A stretch of DNA of 64,000 nt, taken from Thermoproteota archaeon. Lineage in GTDB: Archaea > Korarchaeota > Korarchaeia > Korarchaeales > Korarchaeaceae. The position numbers were made by a program, and so were the translations under genes. The notes beneath the pieces were generated by a model. That model searched no databases. It was not told where the DNA came from and was given only the letters and a program-made list of their open reading frames with translations. The stretch lies in the NCBI GenBank assembly GCA_027491435.1, contig JAOZFG010000003.1, positions 1 to 64,000 on the forward strand, in the 5' to 3' direction. Below, piece after piece: positions 12,000 through 27,068 of the stretch; the first letter of the stretch is position 1, and every line of letters begins with the position of its first letter.

Positions 12000-12509
12000 T
12001 TATCCCCCTCCTTGAATATCTACCTGAATCGTCTTAGGTTTACCTATCGGGTACTTGACTACTATATCTATCGGAGCTCCAGTTGTAGCTAGTCCTCTAG
12101 CTATGACAGACCACCCCTTGTCAGTATTCATCACTATTGAGATAACGACATTTCCCTGCGGGGTCCCACTTATTGTTAAATTTGAGACGGCGCCTACGTG
12201 AACTACAATTGGCCCACTTTCCACATTTTTAGGTGGATTATATACAGAAATGTTTAGCCAAGCTCCATTGGGGTCACCTACTAAAGAAGTGTCCTCTGGC
12301 AACGTCACCCTCAAAGTAACTGAGTTACCCTCCCCGGCTAGGGCGACGTTCTCTATGGACTGATGTAAATCTCTAGCGATGCTCAGGGCCTGGTTAAACA
12401 GGGCCTCCCTTCTAGACTCCTCTATTTGAGGTTGAATTAAAGATATGGCTAGCCCTATGACTAATATACCCAGAAATAGGAGGACAGTAGTCTCCACAAC
12501 GTGTTCCAA
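12000..12509 (-). CDS. Pilin-like protein
   Basis: A 169-residue protein starting at TTG. The N-terminus MEHVVETTVLLFLGILVIGLAISL is a hydrophobic helix with little positive charge before it. An amphipathic helix (EESRREALFNQALSIARDLHQSIENVA) and a beta-sandwich-like remainder follow. The lollipop layout of N-terminal helix plus beta domain matches pseudopilins. It sits 6 bp after the preceding pilin gene and abuts the next. No catalytic motif. Confidence 0.55.
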   Translation of the reverse strand: MEHVVETTVLLFLGILVIGLAISLIQPQIEESRREALFNQALSIARDLHQSIENVALAGEGNSVTLRVTLPEDTSLVGDPNGAWLNISVYNPPKNVESGPIVVHVGAVSNLTISGTPQGNVVISIVMNTDKGWSVIARGLATTGAPIDIVVKYPIGKPKTIQVDIQGGG

Positions 12510-12515
12510 TTTAAA

Positions 12516-12965
12516 TCACCCCGGAGGGGTCCAGCCAGCATAAGCCTTACTTCCACCGGGACCGTAAACCCTTATCGACTGGGAACTGGTCGAGCTTATT
12601 GTACCAACGTTAACCCTGATCGTCAGCTGTTCGTTGACGTTAAAGGTTCCGTCGCCGCCGGCGTCAAATACGTCAATTACGGTCACCATGCTCCCATTTA
12701 TAAAGACGGTCCAAGAGCTCGTATCGCCTACTGGAATGTCGTTAGGACCCCTGTTCCTTAGGACTATCTCCGCCTGACCAGCGCTTGGGCTGTTAGGGTT
12801 AAATGCGATTATTTCCAAGTTTGTTTTTGGAGCCGTAGCTTCTGATCCTTTGGCTACCTGAAATACAGCCCCCCTAGCTGCCGAGTAGACAACAACAGCT
12901 AGAGAAACAGACATCACTATGAGCACTACGGCAATAACCACCCTAGAGATGCCCCTTCTCTCTAT
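12516..12965 (-). CDS. Pilin-like protein, probably with a non-canonical AUA start
   Basis: The first standard start in frame is the GTG at 12941, which would begin inside the signal helix. Upstream codons in the same frame read (ATA)ERRGISRVV, matching the class III signal MRGISRV of the paralogue at 9334-9768. The only in-frame codons between there and the TAG stop near 12996 that could start are ATA or ATT. ATA at 12963-12965 follows GGGGGAAGGAAG, and a TATA box at 12998-13007 puts the transcript start about 12 bases before it. The mature part is a beta domain ending YAGWTPPG. This is the first gene of the six-member minus-strand pilin run downstream of the glycine-linker gene. Confidence 0.65.
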   Translation of the reverse strand: MERRGISRVVIAVVLIVMSVSLAVVVYSAARGAVFQVAKGSEATAPKTNLEIIAFNPNSPSAGQAEIVLRNRGPNDIPVGDTSSWTVFINGSMVTVIDVFDAGGDGTFNVNEQLTIRVNVGTISSTSSQSIRVYGPGGSKAYAGWTPPG

Positions 12966-12997
12966 CTTCCTTCCCCCTCTAATTGCTTTTATGGAAC

Positions 12998-13007
12998 CCT
13001 ATAAAAA
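12998..13007 (-). promoter_or_regulatory. TATA box of the pilin operon
   Basis: TTTTTATAGG on the minus strand, lying between the stop of the 572-residue protein gene (13026) and the pilin gene. It predicts a start near 12977, just upstream of the inferred ATA codon. Confidence 0.5.
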
Positions 13008-13025
13008 GAAAGAGATAAAAAAGAT

Positions 13026-14744
13026 TTAGTAAGGGGAGGGATTTACTGCCAGCGTAGCTACTTCCATGCCTGTTATGGGAACGAAGTAAACCACTCCCTC
13101 CTCAACTGTCACAGAAGCAGCACGTCCGCTGGCCATTAATGCGCCTCCTCTCAGCGGGTTGCCAGCCATGGCTATGAAGCCCTTGTTCATCCCATCTATA
13201 AGTATATGCATGTTGACTCTACCAGCTCTCATGTAGTACTGTCCGTCGAGCTCCATCATTAAGGCTCCTCTGTACAGGAAGTAATCTAAGCTTATGTTGG
13301 CCTCCAACGTTCCCTCTGCAGGCACAGCTAAGAAGAACACGTGTCTAGCATCGGGTAGTTCGTATCCATCAACCTTTATTTTAGTGGCATTTATCGGCCT
13401 ACCAGCCTTACCTATCATGACATAGCTCTCCTTGACAGTTATTACAGATGCTCCCCTATTGTTTCCTAGCGTAATCTCAACTGTCTGCCCTGGATTGACT
13501 GTGAACACGTTGAAGTGACTGTGCCCATGGTGTCCGTGGAAGTATATCTTGAAGCTCTCCTGAGCGACGAACTTGATAGTGCCCGACACGAGGAAAGTCG
13601 ACCTGCCAGCTCCCATTATGAGGAACTCGTGGTAAACTGCCCCTCCTGGACTGCATCCATCCAGCGGGTAGGTTTGCTCGCCCAGGGTGACCTGCTGAGC
13701 ACACCCGTAAGTCTTGAGAACTCCTCCGCTTGAAGGAACTCCCCAGAACTTTATCACACCCCTGGACATTCCCTTTATCTCAATGTCGTAATTGTTGACA
13801 GACATGCCCGCCTCGTGTTTGCCCTTACCGTCATCAACTGAGTACTCAACGTAACCGCTGTTTACCCTGTAACTCATGTCTATGCTGGCCTGCACGTTCT
13901 CCGCTGGGGCGTGATGCATCATCACTACGGTAGGTCCAAGGTCGGCAATCACGTTCTCTCCGTCCACGTAAATGGCTGAAACGCTAGGTATACCCGTGAA
14001 GCTGAGTATGGTGACGTAATCGTCCCAGACAGCTATCTCTGAGGCTCCAGGGGAGTTCTGAAATACTATTCTGACCTGCTGACCTTTATTGACCTTTATC
14101 TTCCTGGGCCAGAAGGACCCATAGACCCATATCTTGAACTTGTGAGCGGCAGTGAAGCTTATCTCTCCGTTTATCGAGACCTCTCCGTTTGCATAAACGT
14201 CTATATCAAAGGCTACCGGGCAAGTGGAGTTGAGTATGCAGACTTCTCCGCCGCCACCTCCAGTTCCTCCGCCTCCGCTTCCGCCACCGCCACCAGTTCC
14301 TCCGCCACCGCCACCTCCAGTTCCTCCGCCACCTCCAGTTCCTCCGCCTCCGCTTCCGCCACCGCCACCAGGTAGCTCAGACCCGGGTACTACCTTCGTA
14401 AGGTTTATCGACCCATACGTCGTGTCATCCCCTCTGACAGCCGAGAAGTAAACCATGTTATCCTCAGCTGAGTAGTAAGGCGATATAGCTACTCCTTTCT
14501 CCTCCATCTCAATGGAGTACTGCTGTAAAGCGTCATTTATGAAAAGTTCCCTCTGGCTCTTGGGAAGTGCTTTAGCGGCAGACACGACGCTGGCTACGTA
14601 ATTCTTGAGGTCGGTCATTATAGTGTCAAACTGCTCGTCAGCCTGCACTCTAGCTGGCTCTATTGACTGGGCTGATGCGAGCAGGAGTATCGATATAGCA
14701 AAAGCCACTAGGAGTATTCCTCCTGCTCCTCTCCTTCCTACCAT
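13026..14744 (-). CDS. Exported surface protein with glycine-rich linker and duplicated domain
   Basis: A 572-residue protein. The N-terminus VGRRGAGGILLVAFAISILLL has class III/pilin-type signal features (RRGAGG then a hydrophobic helix). A helical stretch (~30-120) precedes a linker of almost pure Gly with Ser/Thr spacing at about 125-167. Two homologous beta-rich domains follow (about 170-365 and 375-560). Each has ING/VSGxIxF, FKI, a K.GQ/NPGQ...V.I block, RGA/PGAS.I.V, IYVDG/IKVDG, a hydrophobic V.A.I.(M/L).Y strand, and GMxxGxI. A His-rich patch (FHGHHGHSHF) occurs in the second. It precedes the pilin operon and looks like a filament, adhesin or surface protein. No known family is assigned. 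Confidence 0.65.
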   Translation of the reverse strand: MVGRRGAGGILLVAFAISILLLASAQSIEPARVQADEQFDTIMTDLKNYVASVVSAAKALPKSQRELFINDALQQYSIEMEEKGVAISPYYSAEDNMVYFSAVRGDDTTYGSINLTKVVPGSELPGGGGGSGGGGTGGGGGTGGGGGGGTGGGGGSGGGGTGGGGGEVCILNSTCPVAFDIDVYANGEVSINGEISFTAAHKFKIWVYGSFWPRKIKVNKGQQVRIVFQNSPGASEIAVWDDYVTILSFTGIPSVSAIYVDGENVIADLGPTVVMMHHAPAENVQASIDMSYRVNSGYVEYSVDDGKGKHEAGMSVNNYDIEIKGMSRGVIKFWGVPSSGGVLKTYGCAQQVTLGEQTYPLDGCSPGGAVYHEFLIMGAGRSTFLVSGTIKFVAQESFKIYFHGHHGHSHFNVFTVNPGQTVEITLGNNRGASVITVKESYVMIGKAGRPINATKIKVDGYELPDARHVFFLAVPAEGTLEANISLDYFLYRGALMMELDGQYYMRAGRVNMHILIDGMNKGFIAMAGNPLRGGALMASGRAASVTVEEGVVYFVPITGMEVATLAVNPSPY

Positions 14745-14772
14745 TTTACCCCCTGCTAAAATGTATTTCTCA

Positions 14773-14784
14773 CCAATAAAAAGG
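14773..14784 (-). promoter_or_regulatory. BRE/TATA promoter of the 572-residue surface protein gene
   Basis: CCTTTTTATTGG on the minus strand, identical to the element before the secretion ATPase gene. It gives a short leader containing AGGGGGT ahead of the ATG at 14744. Confidence 0.55.
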
Positions 14785-14981
14785 TTTGGTCAATGACCAT
14801 TATTATAAACATGCGCTAAGACCGGATTTCTCGTATTAAGCTCTAAATTATCTCTTTATAGGGCGAAAATATGGAAAATTATGTTGTGTATGTTCAGATT
14901 CTACAAGCTTTACCTGATGACTATCAGAGATTATTTTGAATAAATAAGCTTAAGAAGATGTTTAAATATAAAATGGAGAGC

Positions 14982-15776
14982 TCACTTCGACTCCTCCTCA
15001 AAGATCTCTTCTATCCAGCTCGGCTCCTCTGATTCAACCTCTTTTCTCTCGAAGTAACCTAGCTGACCTAACAACATGACTATATAGAACCCTACGTATA
15101 TTATGGCACCGGCCCAGTTCCTCCTGAAGAAGTCTATTAGGATGTCAGCCCACTCAACTCCATACATTGAAAGCAAGTCTGGCAAAACATTTATAGCTCC
15201 TAAGGCTGACGAAGAGAGTGCAAACGTCAAAGCCTTACCGCTCCCCGTCTGAAGGTAAACGAGCGTCGTTACAATAACTCCGATGCTTCCTATAACCAGG
15301 AATATAGGCATGTAAACTGTCAAGGTAGCTGTAAGGATGGCTGGTGCTAGAGAGGAGAACCAGAACCAACCGAATGGGTCGTAAAGTAGCAGGGTGTGCA
15401 GGAAGAAGGAAGACCATAGAGTCAGGGGCAGGGAATAAATTGACCTCAGTCCTAGCAGCACTATACCGAAGGTCGCAACCATGGCTGAGGTGAACAGGAT
15501 CACGTTAGCCGACACGAACCACTGGAACTCAGTAGTAATTGATATTAAGCTTTTCATGGGGTTTAGGTTGTGGACTTCACCGCTAGAGAACCAGTACCAG
15601 AAAAGAGTAGCCTCTAACGACGTTATAGAGAGGAAGGTGGTTATAGTTAGGAGCATTATCTTTTCCCTTAACCTGATGAAGTTTATCACCAGCCTGACAA
15701 CCATCGCTACAGCAATAATCAGGCTAGTTAAGTGAGCGAACGAATAAGGAAACGTTAATAAACTGGTCAGATCCAT
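14982..15776 (-). CDS. Polytopic membrane protein of unknown function
   Basis: A 264-residue protein with about seven predicted membrane helices (for example FAHLTSLIIAVAMVVRLVI, VILFTSAMVATFGIVLL, LTATLTVYMPIFLVIGSIGV, WAGAIIYVGFYIVMLLGQL). A short acidic cytoplasmic tail (EEPSWIEEIFEEESK) ends the protein. No transporter or enzyme signature is visible. It starts 8 bp after the preceding gene (15785-16261) and so is co-transcribed with it, next to the pilus and prepilin peptidase genes. A role in the surface system is possible but unproved. Confidence 0.65.
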   Translation of the reverse strand: MDLTSLLTFPYSFAHLTSLIIAVAMVVRLVINFIRLREKIMLLTITTFLSITSLEATLFWYWFSSGEVHNLNPMKSLISITTEFQWFVSANVILFTSAMVATFGIVLLGLRSIYSLPLTLWSSFFLHTLLLYDPFGWFWFSSLAPAILTATLTVYMPIFLVIGSIGVIVTTLVYLQTGSGKALTFALSSSALGAINVLPDLLSMYGVEWADILIDFFRRNWAGAIIYVGFYIVMLLGQLGYFERKEVESEEPSWIEEIFEEESK

Positions 15777-15784
15777 AATATCAC

Positions 15785-16261
15785 CTACCAGGCTTTCTTA
15801 GCCTTTTCACCTGCCCTTTCCAGCAAGCTCTTTCTTTTAGATGAAGACAATCTCTTCTGAGTTAGTTTCTCAACCTCCCTCTCGAAGCTCTCATATATCT
15901 TTGGCAGAGCTTTTTTCAATTCATCGATGGTAACGACACCTCTCTTGAGGAATACCGGGGCTAAGTTGTCCCTGATGACCTTCTCCGCCAGTTCTATCTC
16001 CTCCTCGGTATCCGCTATGAGACCAACGGCCACTAGTTTAGGTCTATCTCCAGTTACCTCCAACCTGTTGGTAACCGCAAGCGCCCAGAAGTTCTCTCCC
16101 CTTATCGTAACTGCTTCCCCTCCAAGAGCCCCGAGCGTGAAGGACCTAAGGGCTATCTTATCCTTAGACTTCTCGCTAATTTTGATTGACGGGTATATTG
16201 CTAACATTTTCGGCCCTTCCTGCTCTAAAGATGCTAGGTACGCTGCCCTCAAAGGTGACAC
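15785..16261 (-). CDS. Small soluble protein, possibly longin/roadblock-like
   Basis: A 158-residue protein starting at GTG behind a TATATAATAG promoter (about 16291-16301). Predicted order is beta-strands in the first ~90 residues (KMLAIYPSIKISE, ALRSFTLGALGGEAVTIRGENFWALAVTN, KLVAVGLIADTEEE) followed by helices and a strongly basic tail (SSSKRKSLLERAGEKAKKAW). A five-strand sheet with helices of this size is reminiscent of longin/roadblock folds that bind small GTPases, and a Ras-like GTPase gene is 830 bp away. This is a fold-level guess only. It forms an operon with the downstream membrane protein gene. Confidence 0.45.
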   Translation of the reverse strand: MSPLRAAYLASLEQEGPKMLAIYPSIKISEKSKDKIALRSFTLGALGGEAVTIRGENFWALAVTNRLEVTGDRPKLVAVGLIADTEEEIELAEKVIRDNLAPVFLKRGVVTIDELKKALPKIYESFEREVEKLTQKRLSSSKRKSLLERAGEKAKKAW

Positions 16262-16336
16262 CCAGGGCTCCGGTCATTACTAACCTGGTAGGTCTATTAT
16301 ATAAAGTGTGGTAGAACCAATACCACTCTTTAGGGT

Positions 16337-17017
16337 TTATGACTTTAAAAGCCCCAGGGCTATGATAGGATCGCCTAATATCATCGAGAGAACATGGCCG
16401 ACCAATATCAAGGGTATCAGTGGGTAGGCAGGAGCTACCCAGCCGGTAGCGTTTACGTCTTTGTCAGGGAGAGGGGAAGTTATTGCTGATAACAAGAACT
16501 TCCTCCTACCTCTCTCATCCAACCTCTCAGCAGGTACGTCACCAAGCCCTCTTTTCTTAGGAGACAAGAAGAGAAGAGCTAGAGCTTTCCTCCAAAATGG
16601 TTCATCAAACCCTTCCATGAGGGAAGGGTCTTTGCTTATTTCGTATAAGTTCAGAGTTAGTTGCAGGAGGGGAACGAACAGCAGAAGTAGCTTTGAGTAT
16701 ATGAACGTGGCGAAGGCAGGGATTATGGGAGACTCTACGCAGTTAGGGTAACAGGGAGTCATTACAGCTAAGGTTAGGTAGGCTAGGATGTCTGCCTCGC
16801 CCATCAGCTTCCACCTCCAAGACAGGAGGAGGATTAGACCTAGGGGGGTGAACTTAAACAGGTACCTGATTGGGTCTCCTCTGAAGAGCAGGACGTCCAG
16901 TAAGAGCCCTAAAATGGAGCCGACGATCCAGGGAGTATCGGGTATCAGGCGTTGCTTTAGGTCGTAATAAGTGGCTATCCCTAGCACTATAAAGGAGGCG
17001 ATCCACTGTATCATCAT
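16337..17017 (-). CDS. Type IV prepilin peptidase (aspartic, A24 family)
   Basis: A 226-residue membrane protein of the PibD/FlaK/TadV type that cleaves class III signal peptides of pilins at the cytoplasmic face. The two catalytic aspartates are visible: one in YYDLKQRLIPD (about residue 19), after the first helix, and one in the GxxD motif GEADILAYL (about residue 75). Further hydrophobic helices cover ~95-130 and the C-terminus (YPLIPLILVGHVLSMILG). It is the processing enzyme expected for the pilin-like proteins encoded at 9.3-14.7 kb. Two adjacent ATGs exist at 17017 and 17014, with AGGGGGTT upstream. Confidence 0.85.
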   Translation of the reverse strand: MMIQWIASFIVLGIATYYDLKQRLIPDTPWIVGSILGLLLDVLLFRGDPIRYLFKFTPLGLILLLSWRWKLMGEADILAYLTLAVMTPCYPNCVESPIIPAFATFIYSKLLLLFVPLLQLTLNLYEISKDPSLMEGFDEPFWRKALALLFLSPKKRGLGDVPAERLDERGRRKFLLSAITSPLPDKDVNATGWVAPAYPLIPLILVGHVLSMILGDPIIALGLLKS

Positions 17018-17090: not shown

Positions 17091-17555
17091 TTGAGGAGTA
17101 AGAAAGTAGTCATACTGGGCGACCCCGGAGTTGGAAAGACTACTTTAGCGAAGAGGTTGTCGGAGAAGGCGTTTAAAGAGGTTAACATGACTGTCGGGAT
17201 AGAATTCCATAAAGTGAAAGAAGAAAACTTGCTTTTATGGGATCTAGCAGGCCAAGAGAAGTTCGTGGAGGTTCTCAAGGAGCTTGCCTCCGACAGAGCT
17301 GACTTATTCATTATAGTGGCCGACTCAACGAGCCCCAGGACTTTCGAGAGCGTGTTAGAAAGGTGGATTAAAATAGTAGACAAAAAGAGGACTATACTCG
17401 TCGTGAACAAAGTGGACCTGGCAGAACCCAATGATGAAGACTTAAACATGCTTAGAAAGCTCTCAGTCCCCTTGGTCAAATGCTCTTCAAAGACTGGTGA
17501 AGGTTTGAAAGATCTGATGATGATCATAAAAGGTTACCTATCAGATAACAAGTAA
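17091..17555 (+). CDS. Ras/Rab-like small GTPase
   Basis: A 154-residue single-domain GTPase with the full Ras-superfamily set: G1 GDPGVGKT (9-16), a G2-like Thr in MTVGIEF, G3 WDLAGQE (about 46-52), G4 NKVD (about 104-107) and G5 SSKTGEG (about 127). WDLAGQE closely matches the eukaryotic Rab/Ras switch II (WDTAGQE) rather than bacterial Era/Obg types. There is no C-terminal prenylation Cys and no membrane segment. The TTG start at 17091 follows GAGGGGGGCTC, with CCCTTTTATAA as promoter. It is divergent from the prepilin peptidase gene by 73 bp, suggesting a link to the surface machinery. A role like bacterial MglA in pilus control is conceivable. Confidence 0.85.
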   Translation: MRSKKVVILGDPGVGKTTLAKRLSEKAFKEVNMTVGIEFHKVKEENLLLWDLAGQEKFVEVLKELASDRADLFIIVADSTSPRTFESVLERWIKIVDKKRTILVVNKVDLAEPNDEDLNMLRKLSVPLVKCSSKTGEGLKDLMMIIKGYLSDNK

Positions 17556-17981: not shown

Positions 17982-18557
17982 ATGTGCCTGGATGAAGTAA
18001 GAGAATGGCCCGATAGAAAGGGGGTGCTTTACGCCGAGGTGAACGTGCCTGAGTTCGGAAAAGTGGTGTTGAAGGACGTGGTGATAATGTCTACCAGGTG
18101 GTGGTCGGACTTCATGTCAGGGATCTCCGTCATCTTCGGGGACAAGGCTTTGAGGCCCATTCTCTACTATTCAGCCTATCGGCTAATGAAGCAGCACAAC
18201 CAGAGGGGGCTCATCAGGAAGATTAGAGAGTACGCTGACATTGACTCCCCTGAGGCCAGGAGGAGGATGTTCCACGTCGCCTCTGAGGTTTTCGCTTGTC
18301 TGGGCTTCGGTAGGATAGAAGGGGTGGAGATTGATGAGAACCACATAAGGGCTGTGGTGAAGGAATCTTTTGAGGCTAGAGGGAGAAAGTCCTCATCTCC
18401 CGTGTGTCACTTCGTGGCTGGAGTCATAGCAGCCCTAATAGAAGACATTTACGGCCTTAGAATAGGCCCTGTAAGGGAGGAGAGGTGTTCAGCCATGGGA
18501 TCTGAATCCTGCCTCTTCGTCGCAGAGCTCATGGAGGAGAGACCCCATGAGGGTTGA
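17982..18557 (+). CDS. V4R-domain protein
   Basis: A 191-residue soluble protein. The C-terminal half carries the V4R (4-vinyl reductase-like) pattern: VCHFVAGVIAALIEDIYG, then VREERCSAMGSESCLFVAEL with its spaced cysteines. V4R domains bind small hydrophobic molecules or cofactors and often serve as sensors; the N-terminal ~80 residues match the family's helical dimer part. Its final codons overlap the start of the radical SAM-HTH gene by 11 bp, so the two are translated together. They sit immediately upstream of the CO dehydrogenase operon, which suggests a signal-sensing role in its control. The ligand is unknown. Confidence 0.75.
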   Translation: MCLDEVREWPDRKGVLYAEVNVPEFGKVVLKDVVIMSTRWWSDFMSGISVIFGDKALRPILYYSAYRLMKQHNQRGLIRKIREYADIDSPEARRRMFHVASEVFACLGFGRIEGVEIDENHIRAVVKESFEARGRKSSSPVCHFVAGVIAALIEDIYGLRIGPVREERCSAMGSESCLFVAELMEERPHEG

Positions 18558-19662
18558 GTCAGCCACTTTAGTCGTGAGGTCTGTAGGGAGGTGCTACCTT
18601 TCCTGTCCCTTTTGTCCCTGGAAGCTAAACAACTCGAGCTTTTTGGATAGATCCTCCCTGGAGGTAACGGTAGATGCGCTGATAGGCTCCATGTTTAAGC
18701 CCGACACCTACTTCATTTGTCCCGACCCCCTAGCCCATCCCGGCCTTGGAGAGTTAATCCAGACTGTTAGGGAGAGGAGGCTCCACGTGACCGTGTTCGT
18801 CCCCGCTTCCACAAGGGTTAGGGAAGTTAACTGGTCAAACCTTCTGAAGGCCGACCAGATCTTCCTATTTTCCTATAATGGCGATGAGCTTTTCGAAGCA
18901 GGTCCCCTGATAAGGTACCTGCTCATGAAGGGGGTCAGCGTTAAGTTAATGGCATTCGTTGTTCCCGGCATGAAACTCGACGAATTCGAGTCAATCATGG
19001 CTTATGCCCAGAGGAGAGGGCTGGAGCTCTGGGCCTCCCTGCCCATACTCTGCCCGATCTCAGAGTGCCCCATAAATCTAGTTAAATTGATGAAATCCTG
19101 GGGGTTCCACGTCACCGAGCCTATAGGGGAGTTCATGAGCGTTTACATGGTCAGAATGGCCTTCAAGGGGGATTACCCAGTTAGGGTCGTAGAGGGTCCC
19201 ATGTGTAGGAAGGACTGTAGGCTCCTCTTCTTAGATTCCAACGGGCTAGTCGGCAAGTGCCCAGCCAGCACTTTTCTAGGCATCTCTTCACCGCTTGAAT
19301 TCGCTGCTGTAGTCAGGAAGGGATGCACCAGGGTAGGGGAGAAGGTCAAGTACTCTTTCGTGACTTCGGTGAAGCTTGTCACCAGTGAAGGGGCCGAAAT
19401 CGATGAAAGGGATCTAGACCTACTCGCCTTATTGGAAGAAGTGGGTAGTTTAAGTAGCGCAGCGAAGATGCTGGGGGTTTCAACCCCTTCCGTGCTCAGG
19501 AGGGTAAGGAAGGTGGAGGAACTCCTAGGAATGAGGTTGTTGGTAAGTAGGAGGGGTGGAGTTGATAGAGGAGGTGTATTCCTAACACCTGAGGCTAGGG
19601 AACTCATAACCAAGTACAAGTCGGTGAAGTCCACCAGCAGCGTCCTCTCCAAGTTCACCTAA
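18547..19662 (+). CDS. Radical SAM protein fused to a ModE-like HTH domain
   Basis: A 371-residue protein. Residues 18-25 hold the radical SAM cluster motif CYLSCPFC (CX3CX2C). A partial TIM-barrel-like region follows, then extra cysteines (ILCPISEC, MCRKDC, KCPAS at about 160-240) like an auxiliary-cluster/SPASM region. Residues ~280-360 are a winged helix: LALLEEVGSLSSAAKMLGVS, then LGMRLLVSRRGGVDRGGVFLTPEARELI. Its wing and GG.GG..LTP end closely resemble the ModE/LysR DNA-binding domain. Fusion of radical SAM and ModE-type HTH is unusual. A perfect inverted repeat starts at the base after its stop, in front of cooF, so it may regulate the CO dehydrogenase operon. Confidence 0.8.
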   Translation: MRVESATLVVRSVGRCYLSCPFCPWKLNNSSFLDRSSLEVTVDALIGSMFKPDTYFICPDPLAHPGLGELIQTVRERRLHVTVFVPASTRVREVNWSNLLKADQIFLFSYNGDELFEAGPLIRYLLMKGVSVKLMAFVVPGMKLDEFESIMAYAQRRGLELWASLPILCPISECPINLVKLMKSWGFHVTEPIGEFMSVYMVRMAFKGDYPVRVVEGPMCRKDCRLLFLDSNGLVGKCPASTFLGISSPLEFAAVVRKGCTRVGEKVKYSFVTSVKLVTSEGAEIDERDLDLLALLEEVGSLSSAAKMLGVSTPSVLRRVRKVEELLGMRLLVSRRGGVDRGGVFLTPEARELITKYKSVKSTSSVLSKFT

Positions 19663-19685
19663 CGTTTTAACCTAGTGTTAAAACG
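19663..19685. promoter_or_regulatory. Perfect 9-bp inverted repeat, candidate operator
   Basis: CGTTTTAAC and GTTAAAACG flank a 5-base spacer, directly after the stop codon of the radical SAM-HTH gene and about 55 bases upstream of the likely cooF TATA box. The size and the CGTT...AACG ends resemble ModE-type dyads, consistent with the ModE-like HTH encoded next to it. The position would suit an activator. It could also be a terminator-like hairpin. Confidence 0.5.
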
Positions 19686-19718
19686 GGTCGTGATGCGTCT
19701 TTTATTGTTATAATATCG

Positions 19719-19738
19719 GAACAATTATTAAAATGTTC
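19719..19738. promoter_or_regulatory. cooF promoter: TATA box inside a GAACA-N10-TGTTC dyad
   Basis: TTATTAAAA (about 19726-19734) lies about 32 bases before the TTG start of cooF and is flanked by GAACA (19719-19723) and TGTTC (19734-19738). A protein bound to this dyad would cover the TATA box, as expected for a repressor site. The leader then carries the ribosome site AGGGGGT at 19752-19758. Confidence 0.45.
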
Positions 19739-19761: not shown

Positions 19762-20343
19762 TTGGAAGCGGTGACGATTCCGGAGTACTTGATTTACGTC
19801 GACCCATCCCGATGCGTCGGATGTAGGAGTTGCGAATTAGCCTGTGCTGTAGAGCACTCGTCATCCAAGACCCTTTACGGTGCAATAGCTGAGCTCCCCC
19901 CTCCCAGGCCTAGGACCAAGGTGATTCCAGCTGACGGAATATACGTGCCCATGAGGTGCATGCACTGCGATCCCGCTCCCTGCGTCGAGGCTTGTCCTAC
20001 AGGTTCCATGCACAAAACTGAGGAGGGGTTCGTGATATCCAACCCGAGGAAGTGTATAGGTTGTAGAACCTGTTTGCTAGCCTGTCCCTTCGGACATCCC
20101 AGCTACAGCAGTGAGAACAAGGTGATCAAGTGCGACCACTGTGTTGACAGGATTAGGGCGGGCCTTCCTCCTGCCTGCGTTGAAGCTTGTCCAACCGGGG
20201 CTTTAAGGTATGGTAGGGCCGAAGAACTGTTGGACGAGGAGAAGAGGAGGCGCGCTTTGGAGCTCATTCTGGGACTAGGCGAGGGAGGGGTCGTGTACAG
20301 AAAGGCCAGGGAAGGTGCTCTGCACGCCCTTCTAGGGAGGTGA
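19762..20343 (+). CDS. cooF: CooF-like ferredoxin for CO dehydrogenase
   Basis: A 193-residue polyferredoxin with four [4Fe-4S] binding runs: CVGCRSCELAC (about 14-24), CMHCDPAPCVEAC, CIGCRTCLLAC, and CDHC plus CVEACPTG. This is the CooF/HycB/DmsB arrangement. CooF takes electrons from the CO dehydrogenase CooS, whose gene begins 4 bp after this stop. The TTG at 19762 is chosen because AGGGGGT lies 4-10 bases before it and the family N-terminus (IYVDPSRCVGC) follows. First gene of the CO operon. Confidence 0.9.
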   Translation: MEAVTIPEYLIYVDPSRCVGCRSCELACAVEHSSSKTLYGAIAELPPPRPRTKVIPADGIYVPMRCMHCDPAPCVEACPTGSMHKTEEGFVISNPRKCIGCRTCLLACPFGHPSYSSENKVIKCDHCVDRIRAGLPPACVEACPTGALRYGRAEELLDEEKRRRALELILGLGEGGVVYRKAREGALHALLGR

Positions 20344-20347
20344 TGGT

Positions 20348-22273
20348 TTGGAGGAGAGAATTTATGAGAGGTTAATGAAGGCCTCCAGGAGGGAGTTCTA
20401 CGAGGGAGTTTCCTCCGACCCCACCGTCCCTCAGCTACTTGAGAAGGCCGAAAGGGATAAGATAGAGACTGTTTGGCACAGGTACCTAGCACAACAACCC
20501 CAGTGCGGTTTCGGCCTTCTGGGGGTGTGCTGCAGGAACTGCAACATGGGCCCCTGCAGGATAGACCCCTTCGGCTACGGCCCACAGAAGGGGGTTTGTG
20601 GGGCCACCGCCGATACTATAGTGGCGAGGAACCTGATGAGGATGCTGGCTGCTGGGGCTGCCGCCCATAGCGATCACGCTAGGGACATAGCTGAGGTGTT
20701 CATGGGCATACCGGAGGGTTGGGCCAAGGATTACGGGATAAATGACAGGGAGAAGTTGGTGGCCGTGGCCGAAAGGCTGGGCATCGAGACCGACGGCAAG
20801 GATGAAAAGGAGATAGCTAGAGAGATAGCTGAAATAGCTTTAATGGAGTTTGGTAAGCCTGGAGAAGATCCCCTTAAGTTCCTAGAAGCCTATGCTCCTG
20901 AGAAAAGGAAGGAGGTTTGGAAGAAGCTCGGGATAACTCCCAGGGCCATAGATAGGGAAGTGACGGAAATGATGCACAGGACTCACATGGGGGTGGACGC
21001 TGACCCACTTAGCTTGATAGCTCATGGGCTTAGAACGGCCCTAGCTGACGGGTGGAGCGGCTCCCTAATGGCAACCGAGTTGAGCGACATAATGTTCGGT
21101 ACCCCGAAGCCGATCAAGGTCTGGGCCAACCTGGGAGTGCTTAGAGAGGATGCGGTCAACATAATGGTTCATGGGCACAACCCCGTATTGTCCATGAAGA
21201 TAGTAGAGGCTGCCAAGGATCCGGAGCTCAACGAGTTAGCCAAAAAGCTGGGGGCCACTGGAGGAATAAACGTTGTCGGAATGTGTTGCACGGGAAATGA
21301 GGTCTTAGTGAGACTAGGTATTCCGGTAGCGGGCAACCTTTTGCAGCAAGAGTTGGCCATAATAACAGGGGCCCTTGAGGCTGTAGTGGTGGACTACCAG
21401 TGCATAATGCCTGCCCTGGTTGACGTTGCCTCCTGCTACCACACCAAGGTCATAACCACAGAGCCAAAGACCCATATCCCCGGGGCCTTACACATAGAGT
21501 TCGACAAGGCCAACGCCCTGGAGACCGCCAAGGAGATAGTGAGAGTCGCCGTGGAAAACTTCCCCAACAGGAGAAAGGACAGGGTTTTCATCCCTAAGGA
21601 GAAGATGGAAGCAGTAGTGGGCTTCAGCGTTGAGGCCATACTTAAAGCCTTAGGAGGCACCTTAAAGCCGCTGGCTGAGGCTTTGAAGGTCGGAAAGATT
21701 AAGGGGATAGCTGGGGTGGTCGGTTGCACCAACCCGAAGACAAGACACGATTACAGCCACGTCACAATAACTAAGGAGCTCATAAAGAACGACGTGCTGG
21801 TGGTGGGCACCGGTTGCTGGGCTATCACCATGAGTAAGGCCGGGTTGTTCAAGCCGGAAGCCGCTGAGTTGGCCGGTCCTGGGCTAAAGGAGGTGTGTAA
21901 GTCTCTGGGTATACCTCCAGCGCTTCACATGGGGAGCTGCGTCGACTGTTCGAGGATGTTAGTGGCTATAGCTGCCCTAGCTGACTACTTCGGGGTGGAC
22001 ATGTCCGATCTGCCCGTGGTGGGATCGGCTCCAGAGTGGATGAGCGAGAAGGCCGTCTCTATAGGGGCTTATTTCGTAGCCTCAGGGGTTCCCGTTCACC
22101 TAGGGACGGTGCCTCCAGTCTTGGGAAGCAAGAGGGTTGTGGAGATACTTACCGAGGAAGCTGAGAAGCTTGTAGGAGGTAAGTTCTTTGTTGAAACTGA
22201 CCCGAAGAAGGCAGCTGAGGCTATGCTGAACATAATAATTGAGAAGAGGAAGAGGTTGGGCTGGCCTGTCTAA
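20348..22273 (+). CDS. cooS: Ni-dependent CO dehydrogenase catalytic subunit
   Basis: A 641-residue CooS-type anaerobic CO dehydrogenase (CO + H2O to CO2 + 2e- + 2H+). Near residue 50 the B/D-cluster motif GVCCRNCNMGPCRI is complete. C-cluster regions are present as MCCTGNEVL, VVDYQCIMPALVDVAS, GVVGCTNPKT, VGTGCWAITMSKAG and MGSCVDCSRM. Length and motifs match the monofunctional CooS/Cdh class, not the archaeal acetyl-CoA synthase CdhA, and no ACS gene is nearby. The start is a TTG after GGAGGTGAT, 4 bp beyond cooF. Electrons should leave through CooF to the Hdr module encoded downstream. Confidence 0.95.
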   Translation: MEERIYERLMKASRREFYEGVSSDPTVPQLLEKAERDKIETVWHRYLAQQPQCGFGLLGVCCRNCNMGPCRIDPFGYGPQKGVCGATADTIVARNLMRMLAAGAAAHSDHARDIAEVFMGIPEGWAKDYGINDREKLVAVAERLGIETDGKDEKEIAREIAEIALMEFGKPGEDPLKFLEAYAPEKRKEVWKKLGITPRAIDREVTEMMHRTHMGVDADPLSLIAHGLRTALADGWSGSLMATELSDIMFGTPKPIKVWANLGVLREDAVNIMVHGHNPVLSMKIVEAAKDPELNELAKKLGATGGINVVGMCCTGNEVLVRLGIPVAGNLLQQELAIITGALEAVVVDYQCIMPALVDVASCYHTKVITTEPKTHIPGALHIEFDKANALETAKEIVRVAVENFPNRRKDRVFIPKEKMEAVVGFSVEAILKALGGTLKPLAEALKVGKIKGIAGVVGCTNPKTRHDYSHVTITKELIKNDVLVVGTGCWAITMSKAGLFKPEAAELAGPGLKEVCKSLGIPPALHMGSCVDCSRMLVAIAALADYFGVDMSDLPVVGSAPEWMSEKAVSIGAYFVASGVPVHLGTVPPVLGSKRVVEILTEEAEKLVGGKFFVETDPKKAAEAMLNIIIEKRKRLGWPV

Positions 22274-22274
22274 A

Positions 22275-23057
22275 ATGCCCCTGAGAGTCCTTGTAGCTGG
22301 AAAGGGCGGGGTTGGTAAAACCACGATCTCAGCCCTCCTCTCATTTTTTCTCTCATCTCGAGGAAAGAGAGTCCTGGCGGTGGACACTGATTCAGTGCCT
22401 AACTTGGCTCTCGCCCTAGGACTACCCCAGGAGGTCGCCTCATCAATAACCCCCCTAGTCAGGGATGAAGGGCTCGTCGAGGAAAGGACCGGTGCTAGGC
22501 CCGGGCAGAGCTGGGGGGTCTTCTTCAGGCTTAACCCTAAGGTTGACGACCTGATCTCCAAGTACGGGATAAGGGTTAGGGATGGCCTAAACCTCCTGGT
22601 GGTGGGAAGCATCGACTCGGCGAAGCAAGGTTGCTTATGTCCCTCTATAGCGCTTGTTAAGGCGCTGTTAAGGCACATAATGCTTGAAGAGGGGGATGTC
22701 GTGGTCGTGGACGCCGAGGCAGGGGCTGAGGTCTTCGGAAGGGGACTAGCTGAGAACTTCGACCAGATGTTATGCGTCTCAGAGCCCACAGTCAAGTCCT
22801 TGGAGGTATCCAGGAAGCTCATCGAGATGGGTAAGCAGTTGGGCATAAGGGGGATCTCTCTAGTGGTCAACAAGTTCCGTGGGGGGGCTGAACTGGAGGA
22901 AAGGATAAAGAACACGTTTGACGTCGACGTCTACTTCATCCCCTATGATGAGAGCTTCCTTCAGGCTGAGATGGAAGGTAGAGGGGCAGACACCTATCCT
23001 AAAGACTCTCCAGGAGTTAAATCGGCTCATAAGATATTTCTAGAGCTCTTCGGGTGA
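22275..23057 (+). CDS. cooC: CooC-like nickel-insertion ATPase
   Basis: A 260-residue MinD-type P-loop ATPase that helps load nickel into the CO dehydrogenase C-cluster. The deviant Walker A AGKGGVGKTT is at residues 8-17. Also visible are VDTDSVPNLA, the CooC-type Cys pair region KQGCLCPS (CxC, expected metal site at the dimer interface) and VVVDAEAGAE (Walker B). The ATG at 22275 is one base after the cooS stop and begins with the family's MPLRVLVAGKGG. The reading frame extends 12 codons upstream within cooS, but that is not needed. Confidence 0.9.
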   Translation: MPLRVLVAGKGGVGKTTISALLSFFLSSRGKRVLAVDTDSVPNLALALGLPQEVASSITPLVRDEGLVEERTGARPGQSWGVFFRLNPKVDDLISKYGIRVRDGLNLLVVGSIDSAKQGCLCPSIALVKALLRHIMLEEGDVVVVDAEAGAEVFGRGLAENFDQMLCVSEPTVKSLEVSRKLIEMGKQLGIRGISLVVNKFRGGAELEERIKNTFDVDVYFIPYDESFLQAEMEGRGADTYPKDSPGVKSAHKIFLELFG

Positions 23058-23061
23058 TCTC

Positions 23062-25011
23062 ATGGACGTTAAAGTCGGAATTTACGTCTGTCACTGCGGT
23101 AAGAATATAGCTGGAAAGGTAGACGTGGTTAAAGTGGCCAATGAGCTCAGGAAGGATCCTAGAGTTTCAGTGAGCAGGCATTACTTCTTCATGTGCAGCA
23201 GCTCCGGTCAAGAGATCATAAAGCGGGACATTGAAGCTGGAAGGGTGAATAGGATCGTGGTGGCGGCGTGTAGCCCTAAGTTACACGAGCCCCTGTTCAG
23301 GAGAGTTGTCAGCGAAGCTGGACTCAACCCAGGGTATTATGAACAGGCCAACATAAGGGAGCTCGTATCCTGGTCAACTGAGGACCCTGAGAAGGCAACT
23401 GAGAAGGCCATAAGGTACACGAGAGCTGCCTTAGAGAAGGTCGTGTCAGCTCAGCCCATAGAGGTTAAGGAAGTTCCCGTCAACAGGGAGGCGCTAGTGA
23501 TAGGGGGAGGAGTTGCAGGCCTGACTGCAGCCCTAGACTTGGCTGAGAAGGGGATAAGGGTCCACCTGGTTGAGAAGAAGCCCACAATAGGGGGAATGAT
23601 GGCCCTCTTCGACAGGGTGTTTCCCACGGGCGATTGCTCCCTCTGCATACTGACGCCTATGATGGCCGAGGCCGAGGCTCATCCGAACATAACAATTTAC
23701 ACGAACTCCGAGGTCCTCGATGTGTCTGGTTCCGTGGGGAACTTCAGGGTGAGGGTGAGGAAGGACGCTAGATACGTGGACCTCGAGAAGTGTGTGACCT
23801 GTGACACCTGCTCCAAGGAGTGCCCAGTTGAGGTTCCCAACGAGTGGGACGCTTACCTGGGGACCAGAAAAGCCATCTACATACCCTATCCCCAGGCCGT
23901 GCCTCGAGCTTACGTGGTAGACCCCGACAGCTGTCTCTACTTCAGAGACGGTAGCTGCAGGAGATGCGAAGAGGTTTGCCCTACTAAGGCGATAAACTTG
24001 GATCAGGAGCCCGAGATCCTAGAGCTGGAAGTGGGCGCCATAATAGTGGCCACTGGGATGAAGGAGTATAACGCTTCAAACTTAAAGAACTACGGCTACG
24101 GCAAGTATCAGGACGTGATAACTCAATTCGGGTTTGAGAGGCTAGTTAACGTTACAGGGCCAACTCAGGGCGAGATAAGGAGGCCCAGCGACGGGAGGGT
24201 TCCTAAAAGGTTCGTCTTCATACAGTGCGCCGGAAGCAGGGACGTGAACCACAACCCCTACTGCTCCAACGTCTGTTGCATGGTGACGCTCAAGCAGGCC
24301 GAGATAATCAGAAGCGAGATACCTGACAGCCAGGTTTACGTGTGCTACATAGACATGAGGACCCCTAAGAGGGGGTTTGAGGAGATGTACGCGAGGGTCA
24401 GGCAGGAGGGCGTCACCTTCATCAGGGGTAAGCCTGGGGAGGTCAGGAGGGAGGGAGATCATCTAATCGTCGAAGTCTTCGACGAGACCCTAGGGAAGAA
24501 GCTGATGCTTGAGGCAGACATGGTGATACTAGCGGCCGGCTTATCGCCCTCTGATGGCACCATAGGAATTAAAGAGGTGCTTAACGTTGGCGCTGACTCT
24601 TATGGATTCCTTCAGGAGCTTCACCCCAAGCTAAAGCCAGTTCAGACTTCTAGACCAAGTATTTTCATATGTGGTGGAGCACAGGGGCCTAAAGACATTC
24701 CTGACTCCGTGACTCAAGCTAAAGCGGCTGCTAGCGAGGCCTCTGCCCTCCTGATAAGGGGTAAGGTGGAGATTCCAGGGGAGAGGGCTTACGTAAAGCC
24801 GGAGCTCTGCACTGGCTGTGGGGCCTGCGTGGAGGAGTGCCCGTTCCAGGCCATAGAGCTAGTTGAGGGTAAGGCCAGGGTCATTGAGGCCGCCTGCGCT
24901 GGATGTGGGATATGTCAGGGGGTATGTCCCAAGGGAGCCATCGAGAGGAGGCTCTACACTGGAGAGGAAGTTTTGAACCAAGTTGACGGCCTGTTGGAGG
25001 TGATAGGTTGA
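23062..25011 (+). CDS. hdrA: Heterodisulfide reductase subunit A-like flavoprotein
   Basis: A 649-residue HdrA. The N-terminal segment has VCHCGKNIAG and CSSSGQE. The FAD Rossmann motif GGGVAGLTAALDLAEKG lies at about 150-166 and the HdrA-type cluster stretch FPTGDCSLCILTP near 191. An inserted ferredoxin run CVTCDTCSKEC plus CRRCEEVCP follows, then CAGSRDVNHNPYCSNVCC near 390 and two C-terminal [4Fe-4S] sites (CTGCGACVEEC, CAGCGICQGVC). HdrA bears the FAD that splits or merges electron pairs. Here it is encoded between cooC and an MvhD-like gene rather than in a methanogenesis locus, suggesting CO-derived electrons feed the flavin. Confidence 0.92.
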   Translation: MDVKVGIYVCHCGKNIAGKVDVVKVANELRKDPRVSVSRHYFFMCSSSGQEIIKRDIEAGRVNRIVVAACSPKLHEPLFRRVVSEAGLNPGYYEQANIRELVSWSTEDPEKATEKAIRYTRAALEKVVSAQPIEVKEVPVNREALVIGGGVAGLTAALDLAEKGIRVHLVEKKPTIGGMMALFDRVFPTGDCSLCILTPMMAEAEAHPNITIYTNSEVLDVSGSVGNFRVRVRKDARYVDLEKCVTCDTCSKECPVEVPNEWDAYLGTRKAIYIPYPQAVPRAYVVDPDSCLYFRDGSCRRCEEVCPTKAINLDQEPEILELEVGAIIVATGMKEYNASNLKNYGYGKYQDVITQFGFERLVNVTGPTQGEIRRPSDGRVPKRFVFIQCAGSRDVNHNPYCSNVCCMVTLKQAEIIRSEIPDSQVYVCYIDMRTPKRGFEEMYARVRQEGVTFIRGKPGEVRREGDHLIVEVFDETLGKKLMLEADMVILAAGLSPSDGTIGIKEVLNVGADSYGFLQELHPKLKPVQTSRPSIFICGGAQGPKDIPDSVTQAKAAASEASALLIRGKVEIPGERAYVKPELCTGCGACVEECPFQAIELVEGKARVIEAACAGCGICQGVCPKGAIERRLYTGEEVLNQVDGLLEVIG

Positions 25012-25877
25012 GAGTAGTGGGTTTCTGTTGCAATGAGTGCGCCTACGCCGCAGCTGACCTGGCCGGTAGCACCCACAGGGTCCACCCGCCTGAGGTGTTA
25101 GTGGTTAGGATACCTTGCTCAGGGATCGTTGACCCATCTTGGCTCGTGTACGCCTTAGCTAAGGGGGCTGACGCCGTGTTCGTAGCGGGTTGCAGGAAAG
25201 GAGAGTGTCACTACGTTGATGGAAACTTCAAGGCCGAGTCGAGGGTCGCCTTCGTCAAGGAGCTCCTCAAGTCAGTTGGAGTAGAGCCGGAGAGAGTGGA
25301 GATGTTCTTCATGGCCGCCTCAGAACCTCACAAGTTCGTGGAGGCCGCCAAGGAGATGGTAAGGAGGGTCGAGGAGCTTGGTCCCTTGGAGAGGAAGGGG
25401 GCCCCGAAGAGGGAAGGTAAGAAGGGCGTGATAGCCAGCTCCCTCCTGGCAATAGCTAAAACCGTCATTGACGCTCCGTTGCCGGAGATACCTGGGTTTA
25501 GAGTTCCTAACTTCTCAAGTGAGTGCATAGGGTGTGGTGCCTGCGTTGAGACCTGTCCTGAGAGGGCGTTGAAGGTGAGGGACTACAACGGGAAGAGGGT
25601 TATAGAGCTTAACGCCAGGAGGTGCACCTCGTGCGGCAAGTGCGTCGAGGTCTGCGACGAGGTAGAGAAGGCGCTAACCTTGGGAGGGATGACACTAAAA
25701 CAGCTTTTGGAGGAGTGGTCAGTCGTCTCTGCTCACGATCTAGTTGAGTGCGAGGTCTGCGGGAGGCCCTTCGCTACACAGAGGGAGCTCGACAGGTCAG
25801 GTTCCCCGAAGGTCTGCCCCTCATGTAAGGAGAGGTTATCGGCTAGGGCCATGGTCGTAGGGAGGGTAGGGCCGTGA
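25008..25877 (+). CDS. MvhD-like electron-transfer subunit fused to ferredoxin and zinc-ribbon domains
   Basis: A 289-residue protein. Residues 1-125 are an MvhD/FrhD-type [2Fe-2S] domain (GFCCNECAY, VRIPCSGIVDP, AGCRKGECHY), the subunit that normally docks hydrogenase or formate dehydrogenase onto HdrA. Residues ~165-220 form a two-cluster ferredoxin (CIGCGACVETCPE, CTSCGKCVEVC). The last ~45 residues hold a CEVCG...CPSC zinc-ribbon-like pair. The TTG start overlaps the hdrA stop by 4 bp. In this operon the likely partner is CooS/CooF, which is inference from gene order. Confidence 0.85.
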   Translation: MRVVGFCCNECAYAAADLAGSTHRVHPPEVLVVRIPCSGIVDPSWLVYALAKGADAVFVAGCRKGECHYVDGNFKAESRVAFVKELLKSVGVEPERVEMFFMAASEPHKFVEAAKEMVRRVEELGPLERKGAPKREGKKGVIASSLLAIAKTVIDAPLPEIPGFRVPNFSSECIGCGACVETCPERALKVRDYNGKRVIELNARRCTSCGKCVEVCDEVEKALTLGGMTLKQLLEEWSVVSAHDLVECEVCGRPFATQRELDRSGSPKVCPSCKERLSARAMVVGRVGP

Positions 25878-26347
25878 TCGAGGAGATCAAGTCCATCTCC
25901 GGTCAGGACGTCAACTTGTGCTACCAGTGCGGCGAGTGCTCATCTTCCTGCCAGGTAGCAGGGGTTGATGGCTTTTACCCAAGCGTCCTAATTCACAGGA
26001 TAAAACTTGAGGACCCCGGAGTGCTGGATGAGAGAAAGTTTGAGGTCTGCCTGCACTGCTTCCTCTGTACCGTGAGGTGTCCACAAGGCATAAGCTTCCC
26101 AGACGTAGCGACAGCCCTTTCGAACATTTGGGTCAAGAGATACGGTCCTGACAGGGTTGAGAGGGCTTTCCTAAAGGAGTTGAGGGAGAGGGGTTTCATA
26201 AACCCGGTAAGGGTTGCCCTCTCGGCTTTAGGGCTTCACTCCTTCAAATCTCTGAGTTCCAAGGCTTTGAAGCTAATGAGGGCTTCTTCAAGGTCGGGGA
26301 AGGTTAGGGAGGACCTCCTTAAGGAGGTGAGGGAGATTGTCCCCTGA
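25874..26347 (+). CDS. hdrC: Heterodisulfide reductase subunit C-like
   Basis: A 157-residue iron-sulfur protein with two [4Fe-4S] motifs, CYQCGECSSSC (residues 16-26) and CLHCFLCTVRC (about 58-68), separated by the FYPSVLIHRIKL helix as in HdrC. It links HdrA to HdrB. GTG start overlaps the preceding gene by 4 bp and its own end overlaps hdrB by 11 bp, so the three Hdr subunits are translationally coupled. Confidence 0.88.
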   Translation: MIEEIKSISGQDVNLCYQCGECSSSCQVAGVDGFYPSVLIHRIKLEDPGVLDERKFEVCLHCFLCTVRCPQGISFPDVATALSNIWVKRYGPDRVERAFLKELRERGFINPVRVALSALGLHSFKSLSSKALKLMRASSRSGKVREDLLKEVREIVP

Positions 26348-27068
26348 GGTGTCCTACTACCCGGGGTGCACTGGGACGACCACCGAGAGGGCCTATGTCA
26401 AGACGGCCCTCATGGTCTTGAAAGACCTTGGCTTTGAGGTGAGGCTGTTAGAAGACCTCCCCTGCTGTGGAACTCTGGAAGCCGAGCTGGTCGATGTCTC
26501 AATAACTAAGAGGTTAGCCTCTCTGATAAACAGGGAGGCTGGGAACGTCATAACCGGATGTAGCGGGTGTTACAGCAATATAAAGAGGGGAGGGGGCGAG
26601 GCTACCCACCTCCTGCACTTCTTGGTGAAGGAGGTAGGCCTTAGCGAGGTCAAGAATAGGGTAAAACGTCCATTGAGGTTGAAGGTGGCTCCATATTATG
26701 GGTGTCAGGCCCTAAGGCCTAGATTCCTAGCCATAGACGATCCTGAGGATCCTAAGATCTTTGAGGAGCTTTTGATGGCTATAGGAGCTGAGCCTGTGGA
26801 GTTTGATATGAGGATCAAGTGTTGCGGTGGACCCATTTCGCTGAGGAGACCTTTAGAGGCTAGGAAGATGGCCGAAGAGGTTGTTAAGTCGGCTAATATG
26901 GCAGGAGCTGAAGTTGTAGCTACGATGTGCAACCTGTGTCACTTCATGCTTGACTACTACACTAACGAAATGCCGGTGCTCCACTTCACCCAGCTGGTGG
27001 CCCTGGCCTTCGGGCATCCATTCGAAGAGATGGATTTTGAGGAGCACTACAATAGGGTTTTGAGGTGA
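26337..27068 (+). CDS. hdrB: Heterodisulfide reductase subunit B-like
   Basis: A 243-residue protein with CCG-domain features: YYPGCTG at the start, DLPCCGTLEAE (about 38-47) with TGCSGCYSN, and a second set YYGCQALRP, RIKCCGGPISL and MCNLCHFMLD. These are the cysteines that hold the non-cubane [4Fe-4S] clusters where HdrB reduces a disulfide. In methanogens the substrate is CoM-S-S-CoB. No methanogenesis gene lies in this window, so the acceptor here is unknown. TTG start inside the end of hdrC. Confidence 0.88.
   Translation: MSPEVSYYPGCTGTTTERAYVKTALMVLKDLGFEVRLLEDLPCCGTLEAELVDVSITKRLASLINREAGNVITGCSGCYSNIKRGGGEATHLLHFLVKEVGLSEVKNRVKRPLRLKVAPYYGCQALRPRFLAIDDPEDPKIFEELLMAIGAEPVEFDMRIKCCGGPISLRRPLEARKMAEEVVKSANMAGAEVVATMCNLCHFMLDYYTNEMPVLHFTQLVALAFGHPFEEMDFEEHYNRVLR

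Follow-up and report, generated by a model that had tools for sequence, protein, structure and literature searches.

The window, the whole stretch of 64,000 nucleotides that was analysed, carries two overlapping genes, corQ and corR, in front of a CO operon read in the same direction (Table 1). The corR frame runs uninterrupted from ATG to TAA, its start is overlapped for 11 bases by the end of corQ, and a ribosome-binding-like sequence, GGAGGAGAG, lies immediately 5' of its ATG. The genes for CooF-like, CooS and CooC-like proteins follow corR, as in the original prediction, which had placed it before a CO operon. The HdrA-like, FlpD/MvhD, HdrC-like and HdrB-like genes are the likely electron-accepting module of this operon, and since the operon continues into them, the electrons of CO are probably passed to an Hdr-type complex and not to a hydrogenase. 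The partner gene corQ, directly upstream of corR, had been overlooked. No defence system was matched by PADLOC.

Table 1. Genes, protein motifs and candidate control elements of the corQR region and the CO operon in the window
Feature	Position	Strand	Evidence or remark
corQ, V4R-domain protein, 191 aa	17982..18557	+	PF02830 V4R, E 1.2e-11
corR, radical SAM/twitch-derived domain and ModE-type winged helix	18547..19662	+	371 aa
CX3CX2C of CorR (C16, C20, C23; residues 16-23)	18592..18615	+	invariant in 18/18 homologs
C58-P-D-P of CorR, opposite GGEP of MoaA/SpeY	18718..18729	+	HMM alignment; C58 and P59 fully conserved, without the Glu that contacts SAM
Twitch-like C224-X8-G233-X4-C238 of CorR	19216..19260	+	spacing of the MoaA C-terminal cluster segment
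C260 of CorR, last of three invariant Cys at the second cluster site	19324..19326	+	alignment of 18 proteins
ModE-type winged helix of CorR, residues 285-364	19399..19638	+	TIGR00637, E 4e-14
Perfect inverted repeat CGTTTTAAC-CTAGT-GTTAAAACG, candidate operator	19663..19685	.	between corR and cooF; putative function
CGGAAC followed by A/T box, candidate BRE/TATA of cooF	19717..19734	+	read from the sequence
cooF-like, 4Fe-4S electron-transfer protein	19762..20343	+	PF13247, E 6e-23
cooS, Ni-CO dehydrogenase catalytic subunit	20348..22273	+	TIGR01702, E 2.4e-234
cooC-like, maturation ATPase	22263..23057 (putative start codon)	+	PF01656 CbiA, E 1.2e-17; CooC by family context
HdrA-like, FlpD/MvhD, HdrC-like and HdrB-like genes	23062..27068	+	Pfam, including FlpD (E 1.7e-46) and CCG (E 2.3e-21)

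The two-domain protein of the corR type was found in approximately 26 genomes of Korarchaeia and Thermococcaceae. Since the fusion is kept in both archaeal groups, the two halves constitute a single gene, and the possibility of two separate genes or of a frame error, raised together with the original prediction, was ruled out. One copy, that of genome G020 (L009, G020:C11:135891-136975), is interrupted near residue 60 and falls into two frames, through a frameshift or possibly an assembly error.

The full-length homologs of the Korarchaeial family were 41-45 % identical to the window protein, with one at 28 %, the CorR of Candidatus Methanodesulfokora washburnensis (L047, G022:C70). A profile of the Korarchaeial N-terminal halves retrieved CorR from 16 genomes (E 3e-23 to 5e-35) of a second family, whose gene content fits Thermococcaceae. 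Among several hundred archaeal genomes strong matches to the profile came only from these two families, and the weaker ones appear to come from ordinary radical SAM or wHTH proteins. No CorR was detected in viral contigs in one scan, and bacterial genomes were covered by degenerate-pattern contig scans only, which are blind to distant relatives.

The corR gene lay beside a CO dehydrogenase (CODH) cluster at every neighbourhood read. Korarchaeial loci with intact flanks had, with one exception, the order corQ-corR-cooF-cooS-cooC, and the Thermococcaceae loci read started with corQ-corR-cooF, with cooS and cooC next wherever enough sequence was covered. In the window and at the other loci with an intact upstream flank corQ was located directly upstream of corR, except in Ca. 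M. washburnensis, where corR stands at the distal end of a cooF-cooS-cooC-hydrogenase cluster, the two being on opposite strands, no corQ adjoins it and no significant CorQ match was obtained in the genome. The CorR of this organism could represent a CorQ-independent form. All genomes of the Korarchaeial family searched that encode CooS of at least 71 % identity also contained corR, and the family members lacking CooS had no full-length corR. The sole exception to this co-occurrence was a genome of the same genus (G014), with a CooS of 61 % identity and no corR. The CooS of G014 (G014:C12:6171-8012) is of a different kind, with one in-frame TGA.

The pair encoded in the window is CorQR, whichever of the two names belongs to which gene. 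The original prediction stated that no regulator of this architecture had been described; in fact it is orthologous to CorR from the CorQR system of Thermococcus onnurineus, which, according to three papers, responds to CO and activates the CODH gene cluster (PMC4791640, PMC13077300, PMC6557876); all three refer to Kim et al. 2015 (doi 10.1128/AEM.03019-14). Its role as a transcriptional activator comes from genetics in T. onnurineus (PMC4791640). In another of these papers CO sensing is assigned to the V4R protein; there the LysR-type HTH protein is designated CorQ and the V4R protein CorR, the reverse of the usage here (PMC6557876). The window CorR resembles that of T. onnurineus NA1 in its two domains (approximately 25 % full-length identity), and the loci have in common a V4R partner gene with overlapping ends and the position before cooF-cooS. 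The two operons differ in that the one of T. onnurineus NA1 comprises the Mrp-Mbh hydrogenase and the Korarchaeial one the Hdr/FlpD genes instead. By analogy with the genetics of T. onnurineus, CorR would activate the CODH genes on CO in the window organism as well. In the original CorQR study, Kim et al. 2015, the V4R protein was reportedly named CorQ and the LysR-type DNA-binding protein CorR; homologs in Korarchaeum cryptofilum are said to be mentioned there, and the radical SAM fold of CorR reportedly is not. The CorQR regulator is known and the window CorR is a further member; what is new, within the literature searched, is the radical SAM-derived nature of its N-terminal half. No link of CorQR to radical SAM was found in this literature, to which the original CorQR study did not belong.

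The product had been described in the original prediction as a radical SAM enzyme fused to a ModE-type DNA-binding domain, with domain search and structure prediction as the means of checking it. The Pfam profile PF04055 matched the window CorR with E 0.041, which is below the cut-off and not significant, so that the radical SAM half is unproven from this protein alone. Eight of the 18 family members analysed were matched by PF04055 (best E 1.6e-7). Without recourse to a structural model, a profile of the 18 N-terminal halves compared with the PDB identified MoaA (E 8e-5) and SpeY, a radical SAM enzyme of the twitch type (E 0.004); the PDB entries in the HMM alignments were 2fb2, 1tv7 and 7wzv. 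The AlphaFold2 model of CorR, built from only five sequences, of moderate quality (pLDDT 73) and weak in the loops of the cluster sites (residues 14-29, 239-251 and 257-273), contained six beta/alpha units with a winged helix at the C-terminus. MoaA was the best Foldseek match of this model (E 4e-9), and the VIA-align comparison of residues 1-264 with MoaA gave a Z score of 18.7 over 253 residues at 3.4 Å. The PF04055 matches in the family, the profile match to MoaA and the structural match together make the radical SAM fold clear: the N-terminal half of CorR has the MoaA-type radical SAM/twitch fold, a (beta/alpha)6 partial TIM barrel. Apart from the fold, CorR has in common with MoaA (GTP 3',8-cyclase) the CX3CX2C motif and the C-X8-G-X4-C spacing of the segment for the second, open-site cluster. 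It differs from MoaA by CP(D/N) in place of GGE, by the location of the third Cys of the second cluster, by the extra invariant C58 and by its fusion to a DNA-binding domain, and no Moco genes were seen beside corR.

In the C-terminal half, Pfam HTH_1 was found at residues 288-351 (E 9e-11), and the match of NCBIfam ModE_repress (TIGR00637) was under its curated cut-off. Residues 267-371 of the same model were superimposed on ModE 1b9m with a Z score of 12.7 over 98 residues at 2.5-2.8 Å, so that one predicted structure displays both folds of the fusion. The GG/GG/LTP wing of ModE that had been recognized is present, with the actual sequence GG-VDR-GG-VF-LTP being slightly off the pattern given. 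The likeness is to the N-terminal DNA-binding domain of ModE, with its GG...GG..LT wing; unlike in ModE, the winged helix of CorR is C-terminal. No molybdate-binding (MOP) domain was matched in CorR in Pfam or NCBIfam, and the other half is radical SAM-like. Assignment of CorR to the LysR type was rejected: its HTH is C-terminal and closer to ModE, and no LysR_substrate (PBP) match was obtained in Pfam. Two further ModE-type winged-helix regulators are encoded in the same genome, one just beyond the window (L002, G000:C36:67720-67971) and one elsewhere (L003, G000:C20:37139-37456). Their C-terminal part differs from CorR and resembles a periplasmic-binding (TupA/ModE-PBP-like) domain, which indicates that different sensors have been combined with the ModE-type winged helix.

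Seven of the ten Cys residues of the window CorR (C16, C20, C23, C58, C224, C238 and C260) were invariant in 18 diverse proteins, in comparison to 17 of the 361 other residues; the full-length alignment with Thermococcaceae had 24 invariant columns. The CX3CX2C motif and the extra Cys clusters pointed out in the original prediction are thus conserved in all 18 homologs. The twitch cluster of MoaA has an open iron site (PMC6231123). The corresponding segment of CorR, C224-X8-G233-X4-C238, is one residue under the published CX9-15GX4C range (PMC6231123) and only C260 comes after it; the spacing match to MoaA is an unscored local one, at a position consistent with the structural alignment. The GGE motif was absent from all 18 CorR proteins, with Cys-Pro in its place and D or N as the next residue in 17 of them, whereas of 19 control radical SAM proteins that these archaeal searches had also yielded, 18 kept GGE and the remaining one had RGE. 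In the CorR of Ca. M. washburnensis the residues after CP are missing (no D/N-P-x-x-H).

As judged from the alignments, the region of the SAM-contacting Glu has been replaced in CorR, with a Cys close to where the unique iron is expected. Since GGE is replaced by Cys-Pro-(D/N), CorR would not cleave SAM; D/N60 could, though, still serve SAM instead of Glu. C58 may be a cluster ligand as far as the alignment suggests, the loops of the model being too weak to give its distance from CX3CX2C, and both Cys sites presumably hold Fe-S clusters. The designation "radical SAM enzyme" is probably wrong for the corR product, for which "radical SAM-derived regulator" is right. The radical SAM make-up of CorR, with the SAM signature lost and all Fe-S Cys residues kept, suggests that the domain of an enzyme has become a sensor of gas or redox state. 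The idea of a cluster gating DNA binding, put forward in the original prediction, is a good reading for a putative cluster. Its other proposal, in which the HTH would guide a modifying enzyme to the operon it belongs to, is unlikely because of the loss of GGE.

The explanation which is favoured, with somewhat better than even confidence, is that CorR is a non-catalytic iron-sulfur sensor which activates cooFSC together with CorQ. A more specific version is proposed tentatively, at somewhat less than an even chance: the sensor would be the radical SAM/twitch domain devoid of SAM chemistry, the invariant Cys at the GGE site would ligate or cap a cluster, and CO or the redox state at an Fe-S cluster, rather than heme, would control the ModE-type winged helix. 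Fe-S clusters would be located at two sites, C16/C20/C23 plus C58 and C224/C238/C260, with C58 (or D/N60) ligating or capping the iron to which SAM would otherwise be bound. Either CO or the low potential set by CODH-reduced ferredoxin would change one cluster in its ligation or redox state, and this would alter the CorR dimer. Activation of the cooF promoter by the winged helix would follow, perhaps by way of the inverted repeat. CorQ, for which a shape similar to the phenol sensors PoxR and DmpR is predicted, would act as the partner and may contribute a further signal or keep the dimer together. In this mechanism CO or the redox state would be sensed by CorR directly.

CODH clusters are also controlled in response to CO by CooA and RcoM (PMC13077300). 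These sense CO by heme; CorR is in neither family and has a domain of the Fe-S type instead. If the proposed mechanism is true, CorR is a heme-free CO-sensing regulator in which the radical SAM fold, best known for radical chemistry, has been reused as a gas or redox sensor, that is for regulation.

Alternatively, CorQ could be the sensor of CO or of a metabolite, in which case the Fe-S domain of CorR would be structural or have no function beyond CorQ binding, and the signal of CorQ would direct the winged helix. The predicted structure of CorQ (pLDDT 72) matched in Foldseek, over its whole length, the effector-binding phenol-sensor domains of PoxR, MopR and DmpR (E 3e-6), and its residues C142, E166, C169 and C177, invariant in Korarchaeia and Thermococcaceae, form a Cys-Glu-Cys-Cys pattern similar to that of the DmpR zinc site (Cys151, Glu172, Cys177, Cys185; PMC7264223); unlike these proteins, CorQ is free-standing and without an AAA+ domain. 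CorQ could act as a second sensor or as a scaffold for the dimer. Only the V4R domain is named as the likely sensor by authors who cite the CorQR study (PMC6557876), and the loss of GGE would fit a degenerate CorR domain. However, the seven Cys residues of CorR have remained invariant despite the drift of the N-terminal half to 19-25 % identity in the most distant members, which is unlike a mere relic, and the Ca. M. washburnensis CorR is present at a CODH-hydrogenase locus without corQ. Sensing by CorQ with a structural or merely CorQ-binding CorR domain is considered rather unlikely.

The preferred explanation of CorR as an iron-sulfur sensor includes a sub-form in which only the redox state is sensed (reduced ferredoxin or oxygen exposure) and CO acts only through the activity of CODH. 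The two candidate Fe-S sites and the setting beside CooF and CODH are in its favour, as is the redox regulation through Cys by V4R proteins such as MsvR (PMC3729527). The evidence makes no distinction between this sub-form and direct sensing of CO, and with a low basal level of CODH it would be a circuit slow to start up; it is regarded as unlikely. The reading in which CorR is still a radical SAM enzyme, binding SAM by a variant motif with D/N60 and modifying CorQ, itself, RNA or the CODH cofactor under targeting or regulation by the winged helix, is quite improbable: the CX3CX2C motif, the (beta/alpha)6 barrel and the twitch-like second cluster site are retained, but Cys-Pro replaces GGE in all 18 proteins and the Ca. 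M. washburnensis protein lacks the subsequent residues as well, no gene for a separate substrate is present besides corQ, and the published genetics shows the role of a transcriptional activator (PMC4791640). Residues C58, D/N60, C224, C238 and C260 make the sensing question directly testable in the genetically tractable Thermococcus.

Two elements upstream of cooF are leads only. The inverted repeat that follows corR, with 9-bp arms, is unusual, since arms of at least 9 were present in 14 of 3000 Markov-shuffled sequences; it is common only in outline to the closest relative, G003. The TCGGAA motif with the A/T box is similar in several relatives, and judged from the sequence alone CGGAA with this box is more likely a BRE/TATA element than a CorR site.

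On the other side of corQR, 5' of the pair, a small Ras/Roc-like GTPase is encoded at 17091-17555 (+) (PF00071, E 1e-19). Genes resembling archaeal pilin or archaellin components occupy 12000-17017 (-), with a type IV leader peptidase at 16337-17017 (-) (PF01478, E 2.6e-8) and, at 13026-14744 (-), a protein of 572 aa that contains long Gly-rich linkers.
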